Below are positions 11,014-18,321 of a DNA stretch of 35,549 nt, one piece after another; the first letter of the stretch is position 1, and every line of letters starts with the position of its first letter. The stretch is from Bacteroidota bacterium. Its GTDB lineage: Bacteria > Bacteroidota > Bacteroidia > AKYH767-A > JAHEYN01. Under the pieces are notes generated by a model. That model had not been told where the DNA came from and ran no database searches. It saw only the letters and a list, made by a program, of their open reading frames with translations. A program made the translations under genes and the position numbers. Location: NCBI GenBank assembly GCA_947448795.1, contig CANFOZ010000022.1, forward strand, positions 1 to 35,549. The letters run 5' to 3'.

Positions 11014-11982
11014 TTAAGAAGAAGGATTGATTTTTCGAGAAAAAGAGCGTTTTGCTGCTGCAACGATGTCTTTTGTATCGAGCCCGTATTTTGTCATTAA
11101 TTGATCCGGCGTACCGCTTTCTCCGAAGGAGTCGTTAACAGCAACCATCTCCAGTGGATAAGGATGATTAGTAGCAAGTACTTCGGCAATGGCGCTACCT
11201 AAGCCACCGTATTTCATGTGTTCTTCAGCTGTTACGGCGCAACCGGTCTTTTTCAAGGATGCAAGCACCGCTGCTTCATCGAGCGGTTTGATCGTATGTA
11301 TGTTGATAATTTCGGCAGAAATGCCTTCTTTTTCTAATAGTTCGCAAGCCTCTAATGCTTTCCAAACCAGATGTCCCGTGGCGAAAATGGTTACATCGCT
11401 TCCTGGGCTCAGCATCAGGGCTTTTCCGATTTGAAAATCTTGATCGGCAGGGGTAAAGTTCGGTACTGATGGGCGACCGAATCGGAGGTAAACAGGGCCG
11501 TCGTGCTTGGCGATAGCTATAGTGGCTGCTTTGGTTTGGTTGTAATCGCATGGATTAATAACCGTCATACCCGGAAGCATCCGCATCATACCAATATCTT
11601 CCAAAATCTGATGCGTTGCGCCGTCTTCGCCTAAGGTAAGCCCGGCGTGAGAAGCGCAAATCTTTACATTTTTGCCTGAGTAAGCTACGGATTGGCGAAT
11701 CTGATCGTAAACTCGACCAGTGGAGAAGTTGGCAAAAGTACCTGTGAAGGGAATCTTTCCTCCGGTAGCCAAGCCTGCCGCAACACTAATCATATTAGCT
11801 TCGGCAATGCCGCACTGATAAAAGCGTTCCGGATGGTCTTTTGCAAAAGCATCCATTTTCAGCGAACCGGTTAGGTCGGCACAAAGGGCTACTACTTCCG
11901 TATTTGATTTGCCAAGCTCAGAAAGGGCTGCACCAAATCCAGAGCGTGTGTCTTTCTTGTCTGTAGGGATGTGTTTAGTCAT
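11014..11982 (-). CDS. Transketolase, C-terminal subunit (split transketolase)
   Basis: 322-residue protein equal to the pyrimidine-binding and C-terminal domains of transketolase. With the N-terminal subunit encoded at 13401-14246 it should form the thiamine-diphosphate enzyme that moves two-carbon ketol units in the non-oxidative pentose phosphate pathway. Visible motifs: LCADLTGS, the catalytic-glutamate segment [10 protein letters not shown] followed by [20 protein letters not shown] and the C-terminal [11 protein letters not shown]. Split transketolases are usual in Bacteroidota and several other groups; normally the two halves are adjacent, but here a VWA gene lies between. ATG start is 17 bases after the VWA gene, so expression as one operon is likely. 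Confidence 0.93.
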
Positions 11983-11999
11983 CGAGAAAAAGGACTTAT

Positions 12000-13388
12000 T
12001 TAGTTTAAATTAAGATTTGTAGAGGTTCCGGAGCTGATTTTAAATGATTTTTGCACCGTGTAATCAGACGACTTCGAATTCTTAGGGCGCATCACCACTT
12101 TGTAGTTTCCGGGTTGTAAAACCAAGGTCTGTTTCAATACTGCTTCTTCCAAATTCTGCACCCACTTGAGTTCGTTTTTCTCTTCTTGAAAAACACCACC
12201 GATAACATTCGATGAGGATAATAGTGTAATCAGCCCTGGTTGGGGAATTTGAACGGTGGTGGTGTGGCTTTGTGCAATTTCAACATCGTTAAGTAACAAG
12301 CGAGGGGTGCACAAAATCTCCAAGTCGTATTTACCAATAATATATTTCTCGGTGCTGTTGAAGTCTTGAACATGCATCGTTTTCATGGTGTTTTTTAAGC
12401 GAACAATAGCTTGTAATTGCTTGTACTCGCTAGCTCCATCGTACTTGAGTGTTAAGAATCCTTGTGGGGCATCAATAGGAATAATGGTGTGCTTGCCAGG
12501 AGTCATCGCCACACTATCTGTAAAAACAGGTGGCAGTGTATGCACAACAACCCGATAGGTACTCAATGGATCCAAACGCAGAGTGTCTGGTAGTCCACGG
12601 TTATTCATGGTGTGAATGAAATTGTACTTCAAGGCGCCGCTAAACTCATCGTAAAAACTCATATTCACATCCGTCTCTGTCGGGTTGCCATAGGTGTCGA
12701 GCAAGTTTACTTGCGCTGTGGTGTTATTAAGAGCTTGCGAGATAACAACATTCAATATGGTTTTGAAACTTGTTTCATTAGCTGCGTTAAAATAGGTTCC
12801 CACGCAGTCAAAGGTTTTTTGATAATCCGAATTGCTTCCAATTCCAATAACAAAAGGTTTTAGCATGATGCCTTTCAGCTGCAAGGCCTTGGAAACCGCA
12901 CACGGATCGCCGCTGCACTCCTCGATGCCATCGGTAATCAATACAATGATATTGCGTGCCTTAGCATCGGGGAAGTCATGCTCGCACTCCTCTAATGATC
13001 GGGCAATAGGGGTGGTGCCGCTTGGCTTAATGGTGGCTAGCTTGGCGATGATTTTGTCGTGGTTGTTTTTGGAAAATGGAATTTCTAAACGGTTGTCGTC
13101 GCAATCCTGTGGGGGATACTTTTTTAAATGACCATAAACATGTAAGGCCAATTCAATGCGATCTTCTTTGCGTAAGCTATCAATCAACTCCGAAAGAAGT
13201 TTCTTCGCGATATCCATTTTTGTCCCGCTTTGCCATTGGCCATACATGCTTTGCGAAGCATCGTACAAAAAAAGTATACGCGTCAGTTGAGGCTCTTGCG
13301 AAAGAGGTCTCTGCGCTTGAGCGGACTGACAAAAAACAGTCATTCCAAGTGCAAAAAAAGCAAGAAAAAAGCAGCGCAACACGTTCAT
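12000..13388 (-). CDS. Secreted von Willebrand factor A (VWA) domain protein
   Basis: 462-residue exported protein. A signal peptide covers about residues 1-25 ([13 protein letters not shown], then QAQ). The VWA domain runs from about 36 to 220 with a complete MIDAS metal site: D43-A-S45-Q-S47, the Thr in SGTTPIA (about 124-126) and D153 in ITDGIEEC. Metal-dependent protein binding is therefore probable. The remainder (about 230-462) is beta-rich and resembles two or three carboxypeptidase-regulatory-like sandwich modules; I do not recognise a catalytic domain. It sits between the two transketolase subunit genes with gaps of 12 and 17 bases, all on the same strand. A secreted protein inside a central-metabolism operon has no obvious functional link, and I do not assign one. 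Confidence 0.85.
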
Positions 13389-13400
13389 TCTTGGGTTGGT

Positions 13401-14246
13401 TTAATAATCACCAAGCGTTTCTTCCAATTGAGCCAAAGCTGTCTTTAGCTGCTCATCGCTAGGTGCTGAGCCATGCCATTTGTGGTTGTTTTCCATAAAA
13501 TCAACCCCTTTGCCCATAATTGTTTTCATGAGAATCACCACCGGTTTGTTGTTTCCACAGGCATTTTTGGCCTTTTCTAAAACGCTCAACGTTTCGTCTA
13601 TATTGTTTCCGTCCATGGTCAATACTTCCCAGCCAAAGGCCTCCCATTTTTTGTGAAGATCGCCCCCAGGTAACACCTTGTCTAAAGGTCCATCAATCTG
13701 CAAGCCGTTGCAATCGATCATGGCAATCAGATTGTCGATGCGATGAGCTACGCCAAACATGGCTGCTTCCCATACCTGACCTTCTTGTAACTCTCCATCA
13801 CCACAAAGGCAATACACCAACTCTTTATCCCCGTTCATGCGCTTTGTAAGGGCTGCTCCGCAGGCAGCCGAAAGGCCTTGTCCAAGCGATCCAGAGGCGA
13901 TATGAACCCCAGGAAGATGATCGTGTGTTGTCGGATGGCCCTGCAGGCGTGTGTTCAGCTTACGGAAAGTAGCAAGCTCGCTTACTTCAAAATAACCACT
14001 GTGGGCAAGCACACTATACCAAACTGGAGAAATGTGTCCATTGGAAAGAAAAAACATGCTTTGGTTCTTGCCTTGCATGTCGAAGTGCTTTGGATCGTGC
14101 TTGAGCACATTGAAGTACAAAGTCACTAGGAGGTCTGCACAACCGAGGGAGCCGCCAGGGTGACCCGATTGAACAGCGTGGGTCATGCGCACGATGTCGC
14201 GACGCACCTGCGTGGCGATTTTTGATAATTCTAAAGTGGATTTCAT
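13401..14246 (-). CDS. Transketolase, N-terminal subunit (split transketolase)
   Basis: 281-residue thiamine-diphosphate-binding half of transketolase. Motifs in order: SGHPGGSLGCADLL at residues about 27-40, LSNGHISPVWY, GSLGQGLSAACG, and the diphosphate and metal motif GDGELQEGQVWEAA through the DCNGLQIDG that closes it. The partner half is at 11014-11982. Length is right for a split N subunit. This is the first gene of the minus-strand run, opposite ychF, with a probable promoter about 20 bases upstream of the ATG. Confidence 0.94.
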   Translation of the reverse strand: MKSTLELSKIATQVRRDIVRMTHAVQSGHPGGSLGCADLLVTLYFNVLKHDPKHFDMQGKNQSMFFLSNGHISPVWYSVLAHSGYFEVSELATFRKLNTRLQGHPTTHDHLPGVHIASGSLGQGLSAACGAALTKRMNGDKELVYCLCGDGELQEGQVWEAAMFGVAHRIDNLIAMIDCNGLQIDGPLDKVLPGGDLHKKWEAFGWEVLTMDGNNIDETLSVLEKAKNACGNNKPVVILMKTIMGKGVDFMENNHKWHGSAPSDEQLKTALAQLEETLGDY

Positions 14247-14512: not shown

Positions 14513-15610
14513 ATGGGCTTAAAATGTGGTATTGTCGGATTGCCTAACGTAGGAAAGTCGACCTTGTTTAATTGTCTTTCAGGTGGTAAGGCGCAAGCCG
14601 CCAATTTCCCCTTCTGCACCATTGAGCCCAATGTTGGGATGTTCAATGTGTCAGATCCCCGCCTCGAAGAGTTGACTGCACTTGCTAATCCTCAGCGCGT
14701 CGTTCCGGCTACGGTCGAGATTGTTGACATCGCTGGCTTGGTTAAAGGCGCATCAAAGGGAGAGGGTTTGGGTAACCAATTCCTTGGAAATATTCGCGAA
14801 ACGGATACAATCATCCATGTTTTGCGTTGTTTTGATGATGACAATATTGTGCATGTTGACGGTTCTGTGAATCCTATACGCGACAAAGAAACCATCGATA
14901 CAGAGCTGGGCTTAAAAGATCTTGAATCGGTAGAAAAACGGATAAAAGCTTTAGAACGCGCTGCCAAACAAGGCGACAAAGATGCCAAGAAAGGGATAGA
15001 TGTGATGCAGATTCTGCTGAAACATCTTCAAGAAGGTAAACCTGCCCGAAGCGCTAAAGTTGAAGGTGAGGATCGACTCCATTTTAAAGAGGCTTTTCTG
15101 TTGACCGACAAGCCTGTTCTATATGTTTGTAATGTGGATGAAAAATCGGTGGTTGGTGGCAATAAATACGTCGACGAGGTAAAAAAAGTGGCGGCAGAAG
15201 AGGGTGCGCAAGTGCTTGTAATTGCTGCGGCAATCGAAGCGGATATTGCCCAGCTCGAAAGCTATGAGGAGCGTAAAGAATTTCTTGCCGATATCGGACT
15301 GTCAGAGTCTGGCGTGACGCAGCTCGTTCGTACGGCCTATTTCATGTTGAACCTGGCAACCTATTTCACGGTGGGCGAGAAAGAGGTGCGTGCTTGGACC
15401 ATTCATCGTGGTATGACAGCACCGCAATCAGCAGGTGTGATACACTCAGACTTTGAAAAAGGATTTATTCGTGCTGAAGTAATCGCCTACGACGATTTTG
15501 TCCACTATAAAACAGAAGCCGCTTGTCGCGATGTAGGCAAATTGGCGGTGGAGGGGAAAGAGTATGTGGTTCGGGATGGCGATATCATGCATTTTCGATT
15601 CAATGTTTAA
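14513..15610 (+). CDS. ychF: Redox-regulated ATPase/GTPase YchF (OLA1 family)
   Basis: 365-residue Obg-family P-loop protein that binds ribosomes; family members prefer ATP. G1 motif GLPNVGKST is at residues 8-16, the G3 region is DIAGLVKGASKGEGLGNQFL, and the G4 position reads NVDE instead of NKxD, as expected for this ATP-preferring family. A coiled-coil segment occupies about residues 130-180. The C-terminal TGS domain is complete and contains the typical TYFTVGEKEVRAWTI and GVIHSDFEKGFIRAEVI stretches. Length and start are standard. It is the first gene of a plus-strand operon with the Cas6-like and GT51 genes. Confidence 0.97.
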   Translation: MGLKCGIVGLPNVGKSTLFNCLSGGKAQAANFPFCTIEPNVGMFNVSDPRLEELTALANPQRVVPATVEIVDIAGLVKGASKGEGLGNQFLGNIRETDTIIHVLRCFDDDNIVHVDGSVNPIRDKETIDTELGLKDLESVEKRIKALERAAKQGDKDAKKGIDVMQILLKHLQEGKPARSAKVEGEDRLHFKEAFLLTDKPVLYVCNVDEKSVVGGNKYVDEVKKVAAEEGAQVLVIAAAIEADIAQLESYEERKEFLADIGLSESGVTQLVRTAYFMLNLATYFTVGEKEVRAWTIHRGMTAPQSAGVIHSDFEKGFIRAEVIAYDDFVHYKTEAACRDVGKLAVEGKEYVVRDGDIMHFRFNV

Positions 15611-15633: not shown

Positions 15634-16377
15634 ATGCGCTACAAACTATCTTTTCAGAAACTGGACGAGCAGAACTCCTCGATCGACTTGCATCATCAGC
15701 ATTTGCTGGCAGCTTGGCTTCGTCCACTTCTGACAAAAGAAAAACCGTCGCTATGCTATTCCACTTTTAAGGGCACGTCCAAAGTTCAGCATGGACAAAT
15801 CAAGTTTCTTTCTTCAAAGATTACATGGATTTTGGCTTCTTCCGACGAGCCGATGATCACTGCCTTAATCGACAAAATTATGGCCTTGGAAGTGGTGGAA
15901 ATTGGTGCCTTGAAACTGATTCCAAAACAAATGGAGGTGCTTCCTAATCCGGTCTTTACCGATCGCACAAAATACGTTTGTATTTCCCCGCTAGTGCCCC
16001 TTTTAACATCGGATAGCAAGGTTAATACAGAACGCCTTCTCGACCCTCAGCGCACCGAATTTTCGGATGAGCTTTTTGAGTGCCTCATGACGAAAATGCA
16101 GCATGCTGGTTTTACAGAGGAACAATTGGATGGATTTCAGGTATTCGGAATAAGTCCAGACAAAGACTACCTGAATCGCCAAAAATCTTCAGGTAAAAAG
16201 ATTTCTCGTGTTTATGCGGATAGTGATCGCAACGAGTTTCTTGGATATCTTTTCCCCTTTTCCATGCATGCGCACATGGATGTGCATCAATTTGTTTGGG
16301 ATAATGGCCTCGGATTCCTTTGCGAACAAGGATTTGGCATGATAGATACAGCCGAAAAGTCGTCCCATTCAGCCTAA
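15634..16377 (+). CDS. Orphan Cas6-like RNA endonuclease-family protein
   Basis: 247-residue protein with the layout of the CRISPR repeat-RNA endonuclease Cas6 (tandem RAMP/ferredoxin-like folds). Signs: N-terminal strand and helix (MRYKLSF, then residues 18-32), the CISPLVPLL strand at 117-125 matching the family SP-x-V/I motif, and the C-terminal glycine-rich loop D-N-G-L-G-F-L-C-E-Q-G-F-G-M at 223-236, the best Cas6 hallmark. The usual catalytic His in the loop after the first helix is not obvious; H20, H21 and H23 lie within the helix instead. No cas1, cas2, cas3, Cas7/Cas5 gene or repeat array is in the window. It lies 23 bases after ychF and 3-12 bases before the GT51 gene. ATG at 15634 is preferred to an in-frame upstream start that would overlap ychF. 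Confidence 0.75.
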   Translation: MRYKLSFQKLDEQNSSIDLHHQHLLAAWLRPLLTKEKPSLCYSTFKGTSKVQHGQIKFLSSKITWILASSDEPMITALIDKIMALEVVEIGALKLIPKQMEVLPNPVFTDRTKYVCISPLVPLLTSDSKVNTERLLDPQRTEFSDELFECLMTKMQHAGFTEEQLDGFQVFGISPDKDYLNRQKSSGKKISRVYADSDRNEFLGYLFPFSMHAHMDVHQFVWDNGLGFLCEQGFGMIDTAEKSSHSA

Positions 16378-16389
16378 AATTTGAAACGC

Positions 16390-18321
16390 ATGAGGGCTTT
16401 CTTTCGATTGCTCACCCTTTTCCTTGCGCTAATTCTGCTATTGGCCACCGCAGGTTTTTTTGCGCGCAATATAATGTTGCGAAAATCGCTTCAAGAAGTT
16501 AGTTCGCGCTTTCACCAAAAATATGGTACGGATTTAATATTCGGCAATGCTTGCTTTGTTGGTATGGATAGAATCTGTATCAACAATGTATCGCTGGTGC
16601 CTTCGCAGCAAGACACCTTGCTGCGCATCGATAGCATGTCATTCCGTGTTAATTTTGTGAAGTCTGTTTTCGGGGAGGTCTCTCTTGCTTCCTTTTGCAT
16701 TTCCGATGCAACTGTTTCACTAGTCAATAGAGGCGGCTCTACTAACTATGCTTTTCTTATGAAAAAAGGGGAGCAGAAGGATACCACTGACAAGGGTATG
16801 GTCTTTTATACCAATCGTTTAATCTCCCGTTTATTCAGCGCTATACCGAGTGAACTGATTGCTAAAAACTTGATGGTAAGCTATGCAAAAGAGGAGGAAA
16901 TACTTGCTGTCAAATTCCCGCTGCTTACTTTGATCAATGGTGAATTCAATGGACGAATGACTTTGGTAGATCCTCATCACAACGCTCGCTTTTCAATCAA
17001 AGGAGGCATCGATAAAGACGCTAAAAGAACCGATCTGGCCTTGGTTTATGAGCATGAGAAAGGCGAGATGATAACACTGCTTCAAGATAAATGGAGTACA
17101 TTATTTGCTTTTGATTCCTGTCGATTCGCTTTTGCTTTTGCCGGCGAAGAAAATGGGCGCTTGAAATTACTTGGCAACCTATCTGCTTCCGGTTTTCGAT
17201 TGGATAACCTGCGTATTTCTAGCGAGCCAGTTAGTATTAAAAAAGCGAATCTCGATTATCAAATAAGTATAAGCAATCGGGAGTTTCAGCTTGATAGCAC
17301 TTCAACTGCATCCATAAACGACATCGTCTTTCATCCGGCAATACAAGTAGTTAAATCCACAAAAGGAAAATTGTTAAGCATGCGTTTAAATATGCCTGCC
17401 ATGGCTGCTACTAATTTCTTCCAATCATTGCCGCAAGGACTTTTCGGTCTATCTCGAAACATCACGGCAAGTGGCTCTCTTTCTTATCAAGCAAAGCTTG
17501 AGCTTAATCTGACTAATCCAGACAGCGTCGTTTTTGTTGCGGAGATGAAGAAAGATAAACTCCAGCTGGTGCCAGCGAGTATTTATCCAATAACCCGCGT
17601 TAATCAATCCTTCGACTACGCAGTTTATGAAAAAGGCAACTTCATACGCTCTTTTAATGTTGGCGAAGCGAACCCAGATTACACGCCATTAATGAAGATC
17701 TCCGAGTTGTTAAAAAACTGTCTGCTTACCTCTGAGGATGGGGCCTTCTTTTATCACCGCGGCTTCAATGAAGAGATGTTTGCTAAAGCCATCCGTGATA
17801 ATATCAAAAAACAGCGATTTGCAAGAGGGGCAAGCACTATAACCATGCAAATGGTTAAAAATGTTTTTCTGAATCGTAACAAAACGATCTCGCGTAAGCT
17901 CGATGAAGCCTTGCTTGTTTGGCTAATTGAAAACAACCACCTAATAAGTAAGGAGCGAATTCTGGAGATTTATCTCAATGTTATAGAATGGGGGCCAGGC
18001 GTATATGGAATAGGAGAGGCATCCCGTTTTTATTTTGCAAAGAAACCCGCCGACCTTAATCTTGAAGAAAGCATGTTTCTTGCTAGCATTGTCCCTAATC
18101 CTAAAGTATTCATGTATGCATTCGATACCGATGGTAATTTGAAACCGCATTTGGCAGGATTTTACCGTCTAGTTTCTGGCATTTTATTAAAAAGAATGGT
18201 GATTACCGATTTGGAATTCGCCAATTTAAAACCCAATGTAAAACTGAAAGGTCAGGCCCGCGACTTTCTGCGTAAGCCCTTGACGGAACCTTTGGATTCC
18301 TTGCTTATGGAGCAGGAATAA
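16390..18321 (+). CDS. Peptidoglycan glycosyltransferase (GT51) with AsmA-like N-terminal half
   Basis: About 643 residues. An N-terminal membrane anchor (about residues 6-26) is followed by a long beta-rich region (about 35-385) that looks AsmA-like, then a GT51 domain (about 430-590). GT51 motifs: SEDGAFFYHRGF with the catalytic Glu, GASTITMQMVKN, and KERILEIYLNVIEWGPGVYGIGEASR. There is no penicillin-binding transpeptidase domain, so it should only polymerise lipid II into glycan strands, at the periplasmic face. AsmA-like/GT51 fusions are known in Bacteroidota. The ATG at 16390 is chosen; an in-frame TTG at 16381 would add three residues, and neither has a Shine-Dalgarno site. It is the last gene of the ychF operon and is followed by a terminator. 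Confidence 0.88.
   Translation: MRAFFRLLTLFLALILLLATAGFFARNIMLRKSLQEVSSRFHQKYGTDLIFGNACFVGMDRICINNVSLVPSQQDTLLRIDSMSFRVNFVKSVFGEVSLASFCISDATVSLVNRGGSTNYAFLMKKGEQKDTTDKGMVFYTNRLISRLFSAIPSELIAKNLMVSYAKEEEILAVKFPLLTLINGEFNGRMTLVDPHHNARFSIKGGIDKDAKRTDLALVYEHEKGEMITLLQDKWSTLFAFDSCRFAFAFAGEENGRLKLLGNLSASGFRLDNLRISSEPVSIKKANLDYQISISNREFQLDSTSTASINDIVFHPAIQVVKSTKGKLLSMRLNMPAMAATNFFQSLPQGLFGLSRNITASGSLSYQAKLELNLTNPDSVVFVAEMKKDKLQLVPASIYPITRVNQSFDYAVYEKGNFIRSFNVGEANPDYTPLMKISELLKNCLLTSEDGAFFYHRGFNEEMFAKAIRDNIKKQRFARGASTITMQMVKNVFLNRNKTISRKLDEALLVWLIENNHLISKERILEIYLNVIEWGPGVYGIGEASRFYFAKKPADLNLEESMFLASIVPNPKVFMYAFDTDGNLKPHLAGFYRLVSGILLKRMVITDLEFANLKPNVKLKGQARDFLRKPLTEPLDSLLMEQE

Follow-up and report, generated by a model that had tools for sequence, protein, structure and literature searches.

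The gene at positions 15,634 to 16,377 (+) of the 35,549-nt stretch of Bacteroidota DNA analysed here, hereafter the window, encodes a Cas6 homologue. Cas6 is the RNA cutter of CRISPR immunity. Given a core gene, nearly no usable CRISPR system in the carrier genomes and the loss of the residues for cutting, the product is probably an RNA-binding protein for ordinary cell functions. We therefore favour, as a probable reading, that two lineages of Bacteroidia have made a Cas6 into an RNA-binding protein with a housekeeping role, which probably no longer cleaves its RNA.

The open reading frame runs from an ATG start to a TAA stop and specifies 247 residues. The product matches the Pfam profile PF01881 (Cas_Cas6_C) with 52 bits (E = 1.6e-13, cut-off 23), the PADLOC Cas6b profile with 89 bits and, over its full length, the profile of its own clade with 339 bits; its score of 55 bits against the NCBIfam equivalog TIGR01877 (cas_cas6) lies narrowly below the cut-off of 58.65. 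Comparison of the family profile with solved Cas6 structures revealed 3ufc (PfCas6nc, 6.9e-18), 5yi6 (3.3e-16) and 3qjj/3qjp (PH0350, PhCas6nc, about 7e-15). The AlphaFold2 model, built with 43 family members as input, has a mean pLDDT of 93 and a pTM of 0.89, and its top Foldseek matches are 5yi6, 3ufc and 3qjj with E-values of about 1e-15 and TM scores of 0.75-0.80. Model and matches agree on two tandem RAMP (ferredoxin-like) domains, and the predicted Cas6 fold is not in doubt. An earlier note on this DNA, made from the sequence alone, had recognised a Cas6 layout with a C-terminal glycine-rich loop and an SP-x-V strand. The layout is borne out by the PF01881 score, the model and the Foldseek comparison, the suggested profile search and structural superposition having recovered a Cas6 with two RAMP domains. 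Both sequence elements are present, the loop as GLGFLCEQGFG (residues 225-235, positions 16,306 to 16,338, +) and the strand in CISPLV.

The Pyrococcus Cas6nc proteins (PfCas6nc, 3ufc; PhCas6nc, PH0350, 3qjj/3qjl) are among the best matches in both sequence and structure. Similar to the clade, they possess two RAMP domains and a glycine-rich loop and lack the catalytic histidine; by the model, the alignments and the loop scan, the window protein likewise has a Cas6 fold without this histidine, the combination that characterizes Cas6nc. However, the Pyrococcus proteins are archaeal and have been studied as CRISPR proteins, P. furiosus also encoding a catalytic paralogue, they keep residues where the loop between helix 1 and the strand is shorter in the clade, and they are not encoded by a core gene adjoining ychF. 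The inactive PhCas6nc has its binding site for unstructured RNA in the cleft that separates the two domains (PMC3727216). The crenarchaeal Cas6 (SsoCas6, 3zfv, 4ill) also misses the active-site histidine, but it keeps a catalytic lysine and cuts CRISPR repeats (PMC3652601), and it is structurally more distant in Foldseek (TM about 0.5).

Differences from cutting Cas6 enzymes were found in the active site. For cleavage, PfCas6 relies on Tyr31, His46 and Lys52 (PMC3652601). Alignment to CRISPR Cas6 and to the solved structures placed none of these three residues in the window protein, which confirms the missing histidine pointed out in the earlier note and adds the tyrosine and the lysine to the loss. 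The type I-B Cas6 of the phylum carry the pattern IY...LHxxGY...FKLFTFS, and the LHxxG loop, site of the catalytic histidine in the majority of the phylum's CRISPR Cas6, occurs in 0 of the 102 clade members examined. The window protein has YSTFKG (residues 42-47, positions 15,757 to 15,774, +), the clade's FSxLKG motif with invariant S43 and K46, where CRISPR Cas6 has FKLFTFS. Upstream of it, at the start of helix 1, stands an HHQ motif (residues 20-22, positions 15,691 to 15,699, +), in which H21 is invariant and H20 and Q22 are each conserved in at least 90% of 43 sequences; between the HHQ and FSxLKG motifs, histidine is wholly absent in 85 of 102 members. A conserved basic motif, GKKISRVY (residues 187-194, positions 16,192 to 16,215, +), contains the invariant K188 and R192. 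D145, D176, Y179 and the glycines of the glycine-rich loop are invariant as well. The loop pattern G-hydrophobic-G-x5-G-hydrophobic-G, a consensus taken from PMC3727216, is matched by all 102 clade sequences. The x5 stretch of Cas6 often holds at least one basic residue (PMC3727216). Such a residue is lacking in the window protein, as in all 40 examined members of its order, and is present in 42 of 62 clade members from elsewhere; its loss might weaken RNA binding in the window's order. The absence of LHxxG is in itself no proof of inactivity, because some type I loci (L212, L082, L216) encode a Cas6 that is also without it and because Cas6 active sites shift from subfamily to subfamily (PMC3652601, PMC3727216).

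The gene is near-universal in the window's order, which we take to be the GTDB order AKYH767. It is present in exactly one copy each in 41 of the 42 genomes sampled and in all 33 of high quality, the sole genome without it being 58% complete; named records with the gene include 2013_40CM_41_45, OLB10, UBA6661 and palsa_967. A search of the contigs with the single window protein returned no matches, and an alignment-based search returned 63 loci. In a second order, presumably the Cytophagales, 177 of 392 genomes matched at E <= 0.001, nearly all of them strongly. Named carriers there include Flammeovirga, Marinoscillum furvescens, Microscillaceae, Bernardetiaceae and Cyclobacteriaceae. One large family (f19) has a member of the clade in 221 of 247 genomes and many further families also carry one, while families f53 and f71 show weak matches or none among the matches listed. 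The gene was also found in family f43 (three genomes) and in family f79 (one genome). Two records titled Thalassovita and Thalassobius (Pseudomonadota; L142 and L147) also hold the gene, and L142 clusters with Flammeovirga; these are probably misnamed or contaminated bins.

The members form one clade. Nearly all of them score at least about 225 bits, with other Cas6 of the phylum reaching at most about 105 bits, and in the tree the clade lies on one side of a branch against the other Cas6 with support 100/99. The tree group labelled 'crispr' includes two genes later found outside cas loci (L086, L214), and the clade is independent of both. Within the clade, two groups are resolved, the window's order (97/99) and the Cytophagales members sampled (100/95). 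The clade is under strong purifying selection, with dN/dS of 0.01-0.05 in close pairs with measurable values.

The upstream neighbour is ychF (positions 14,513 to 15,610, +; TIGR00092, 482 bits), separated from the Cas6-like gene by 23 nt. YchF is a ribosome-associated ATPase that acts in translation under stress (PMC8779481). Families f1 and f2 of the window's order and parts of f3 and f4 have ychF immediately upstream of the gene, as do f43 and the majority of the Cytophagales loci inspected. The arrangement is therefore older than the split of the two orders, or it moved with the gene. A gene for a GT51 peptidoglycan glycosyltransferase whose N-terminal part is long (positions 16,381 to 18,321, +; PF00912, 157 bits) follows directly downstream in 26 of 41 genomes of the window's order and was not seen in the Cytophagales loci examined, so GT51 was set aside as a functional clue. 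The earlier note had placed the gene in a ychF/GT51 operon and had asked whether this gene order is conserved across Bacteroidota: the ychF-cas6 pair proved to be old and common to several families of the order and to Cytophagales, but the GT51 part, common in the window's order, was absent from the Cytophagales loci examined. The proposed cotranscription probably does not extend to many Cytophagales genomes, where the gap between ychF and cas6 measures 57-231 nt and contains a promoter-like TAnnTTTG box, and where the gene probably has its own transcription. In the Cytophagales genus g92 (L172-L204), two leader elements, GCTTATnCACCC and TTGTCTCA, are conserved behind this box in the gap. GCTTATnCACCC occurs in about one copy per genome, mostly upstream of the Cas6-like gene, with no sign of a regulon, so that self-regulation through these elements is possible. 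Further upstream in the window (positions 11,014 to 14,246, -), a gene for a von Willebrand factor A protein (12,000 to 13,388) separates the two halves of a split transketolase, and the same trio precedes ychF-cas6 in L057 and L081, which belong to other families. In three loci, among them L057 7,260-7,649 (-) and L081 4,099-4,473 (-), a divergent gene upstream of ychF-cas6 encodes a small protein that by eye resembles S4-type RNA-binding proteins (Hsp15-like).

The gene occurs independently of CRISPR genes. No array was detected in the window with a simple repeat finder, and searches for Cas1, RAMP and type I Cas7 found no match in the window's own genome, in line with the note's statement that no other cas gene or array lies nearby. 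No association with class 1 cas genes was found in this genome or in the order, nor with arrays in the window. Of the 42 genomes of the order, one has RAMP genes, none has type I Cas7 and 9 have Cas1; most of these Cas1 proteins are about 300 aa long with scores of about 100 bits, as would fit type II systems. Type II CRISPR systems make no use of Cas6.

The same counts bear on the other suggestion of the earlier note, that of a solo Cas6 with its array at a distant place in the genome, and on a variant in which it works for type III complexes. The protein is homologous to Cas6b, and in many type III systems Cas6 is supplied in trans (PMC12669027). Nevertheless, a gene carried by 41 of 42 genomes would have to work where 41 of 42 are free of RAMP genes and all 42 of type I Cas7, and it would have to do so with its active site missing. 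In addition, two type I-B relatives with the clade gene (G269, G146) have a further Cas6 of their own next to Cas8b. On these grounds we rejected a Cas6 acting in trans on a distant array, a reading that we regard as very improbable. One genome, G016 (L205, L206, L035, L087), alone in the order carries type III RAMP genes, along with RT-Cas1 and repeats; its single PF01881 match is the core clade gene, which is a point for the solo reading, and CRISPR has possibly borrowed the gene there, unless the RT-Cas1 protein has a Cas6 domain of its own. A CRISPR-independent role in anti-phage defence is the least probable of the readings considered. It would agree with the origin of the protein in a defence family, but defence genes are usually patchy and mobile, and this one is single-copy, near-universal, strongly conserved and set among housekeeping genes.

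We propose that the gene was released from CRISPR immunity at an early date and took on a housekeeping role in the two Bacteroidia lineages. Its protein has retained the fold of two RAMP domains and the glycine-rich loop and lost the Pyrococcus-type cutting loop together with its three residues. By analogy with the inactive Pyrococcus Cas6nc, it most likely uses the cleft between the domains to bind a short, single-stranded piece of a cellular RNA, which it would hold or mask uncut. The neighbourhood of YchF hints weakly at translation, and a role there through ychF would be a guess. The note's reading of a repurposed Cas6 is supported in that the gene is near-universal in the order regardless of CRISPR genes, forms one clade, evolves under purifying selection and has lost the canonical active site; RNA binding itself we infer.

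An unlikely alternative is that the protein is still a sequence-specific RNase that processes cellular RNA with a rebuilt active site, for example H20/H21 together with K46, K188 or R192. These residues are conserved to the degree given above, and crenarchaeal Cas6 demonstrates that RNA can be cut without a histidine (PMC3652601). However, the loop with the catalytic tyrosine, histidine and lysine is gone in 102 of 102 sequences, and the closest folds include the inactive Cas6nc. Moreover, 5yi6 has a histidine at the position of H21 in addition to the one in its catalytic loop, and a role of H21 in catalysis therefore does not follow from its presence alone. A protein-binding scaffold that has lost RNA binding, for instance a partner of YchF or the ribosome, is improbable: the lasting linkage to ychF and the loss of the basic loop residue in the window's order would suit it, but K46, K188 and R192 are invariant basic or polar residues as expected of RNA contacts, and most Cytophagales members keep the basic residue in the loop. 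As an extension of the housekeeping RNA-binding reading, we tentatively consider that the protein recognises one cellular RNA, that it is perhaps linked through YchF to translation, and that HHQ maybe belongs to a new catalytic centre. If true, such a centre would make the protein an RNase of housekeeping function with its origin in CRISPR immunity.

In most known cases of repurposed CRISPR parts, guide RNAs, arrays, cas gene sets or mobile elements are retained. Here one Cas protein by itself appears to be fixed as a core chromosomal gene in one order and much of another, in carrier genomes that are mostly without class 1 CRISPR genes. We found no description of an orphan Cas6 in Cytophagales or adjoining ychF in the open-access literature, most subscription papers being outside the scope of the search, and the Cas6 parts of a 2022 review and of the 2025 CRISPR classification make no mention of such a protein. 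As profile libraries call the clade protein Cas6, CRISPR counts in these groups can be inflated. The protein may turn out to be a new component of the RNA metabolism or translation of Bacteroidota, and since cultured carriers exist (Flammeovirga, Marinoscillum furvescens), its RNA partner and knockout phenotype are directly testable.

Other Cas6 proteins of the phylum are distinct from the clade. The type I-B Cas6 encoded beside Cas8b (for example L207 and L208) belong to the same superfamily and match the same PADLOC Cas6b profile, but they carry the IY...LHxxGY...FKLFTFS pattern, lie in cas operons and fall on other branches of the tree. The Cas6 frequent in family f103 (about 95 bits) was checked and proved to be a CRISPR Cas6, as it has LHxxGY...FKLFTFS and lies near Cmr4, Csm3 or Cas10 in 4 of 4 loci tested. 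A second, separate Cas6-like lineage was observed in family f52 (G088, G245), at L086 9,377-10,084 (-) and L214 973-1,683 (+). Its proteins have no LHxxGY loop, no array was found nearby and no Cas1 in G088. The gene adjoins one for a protein of 1121-1129 aa with regulator-propeller and SpoIIE phosphatase domains, and the lineage is possibly another CRISPR-free Cas6.
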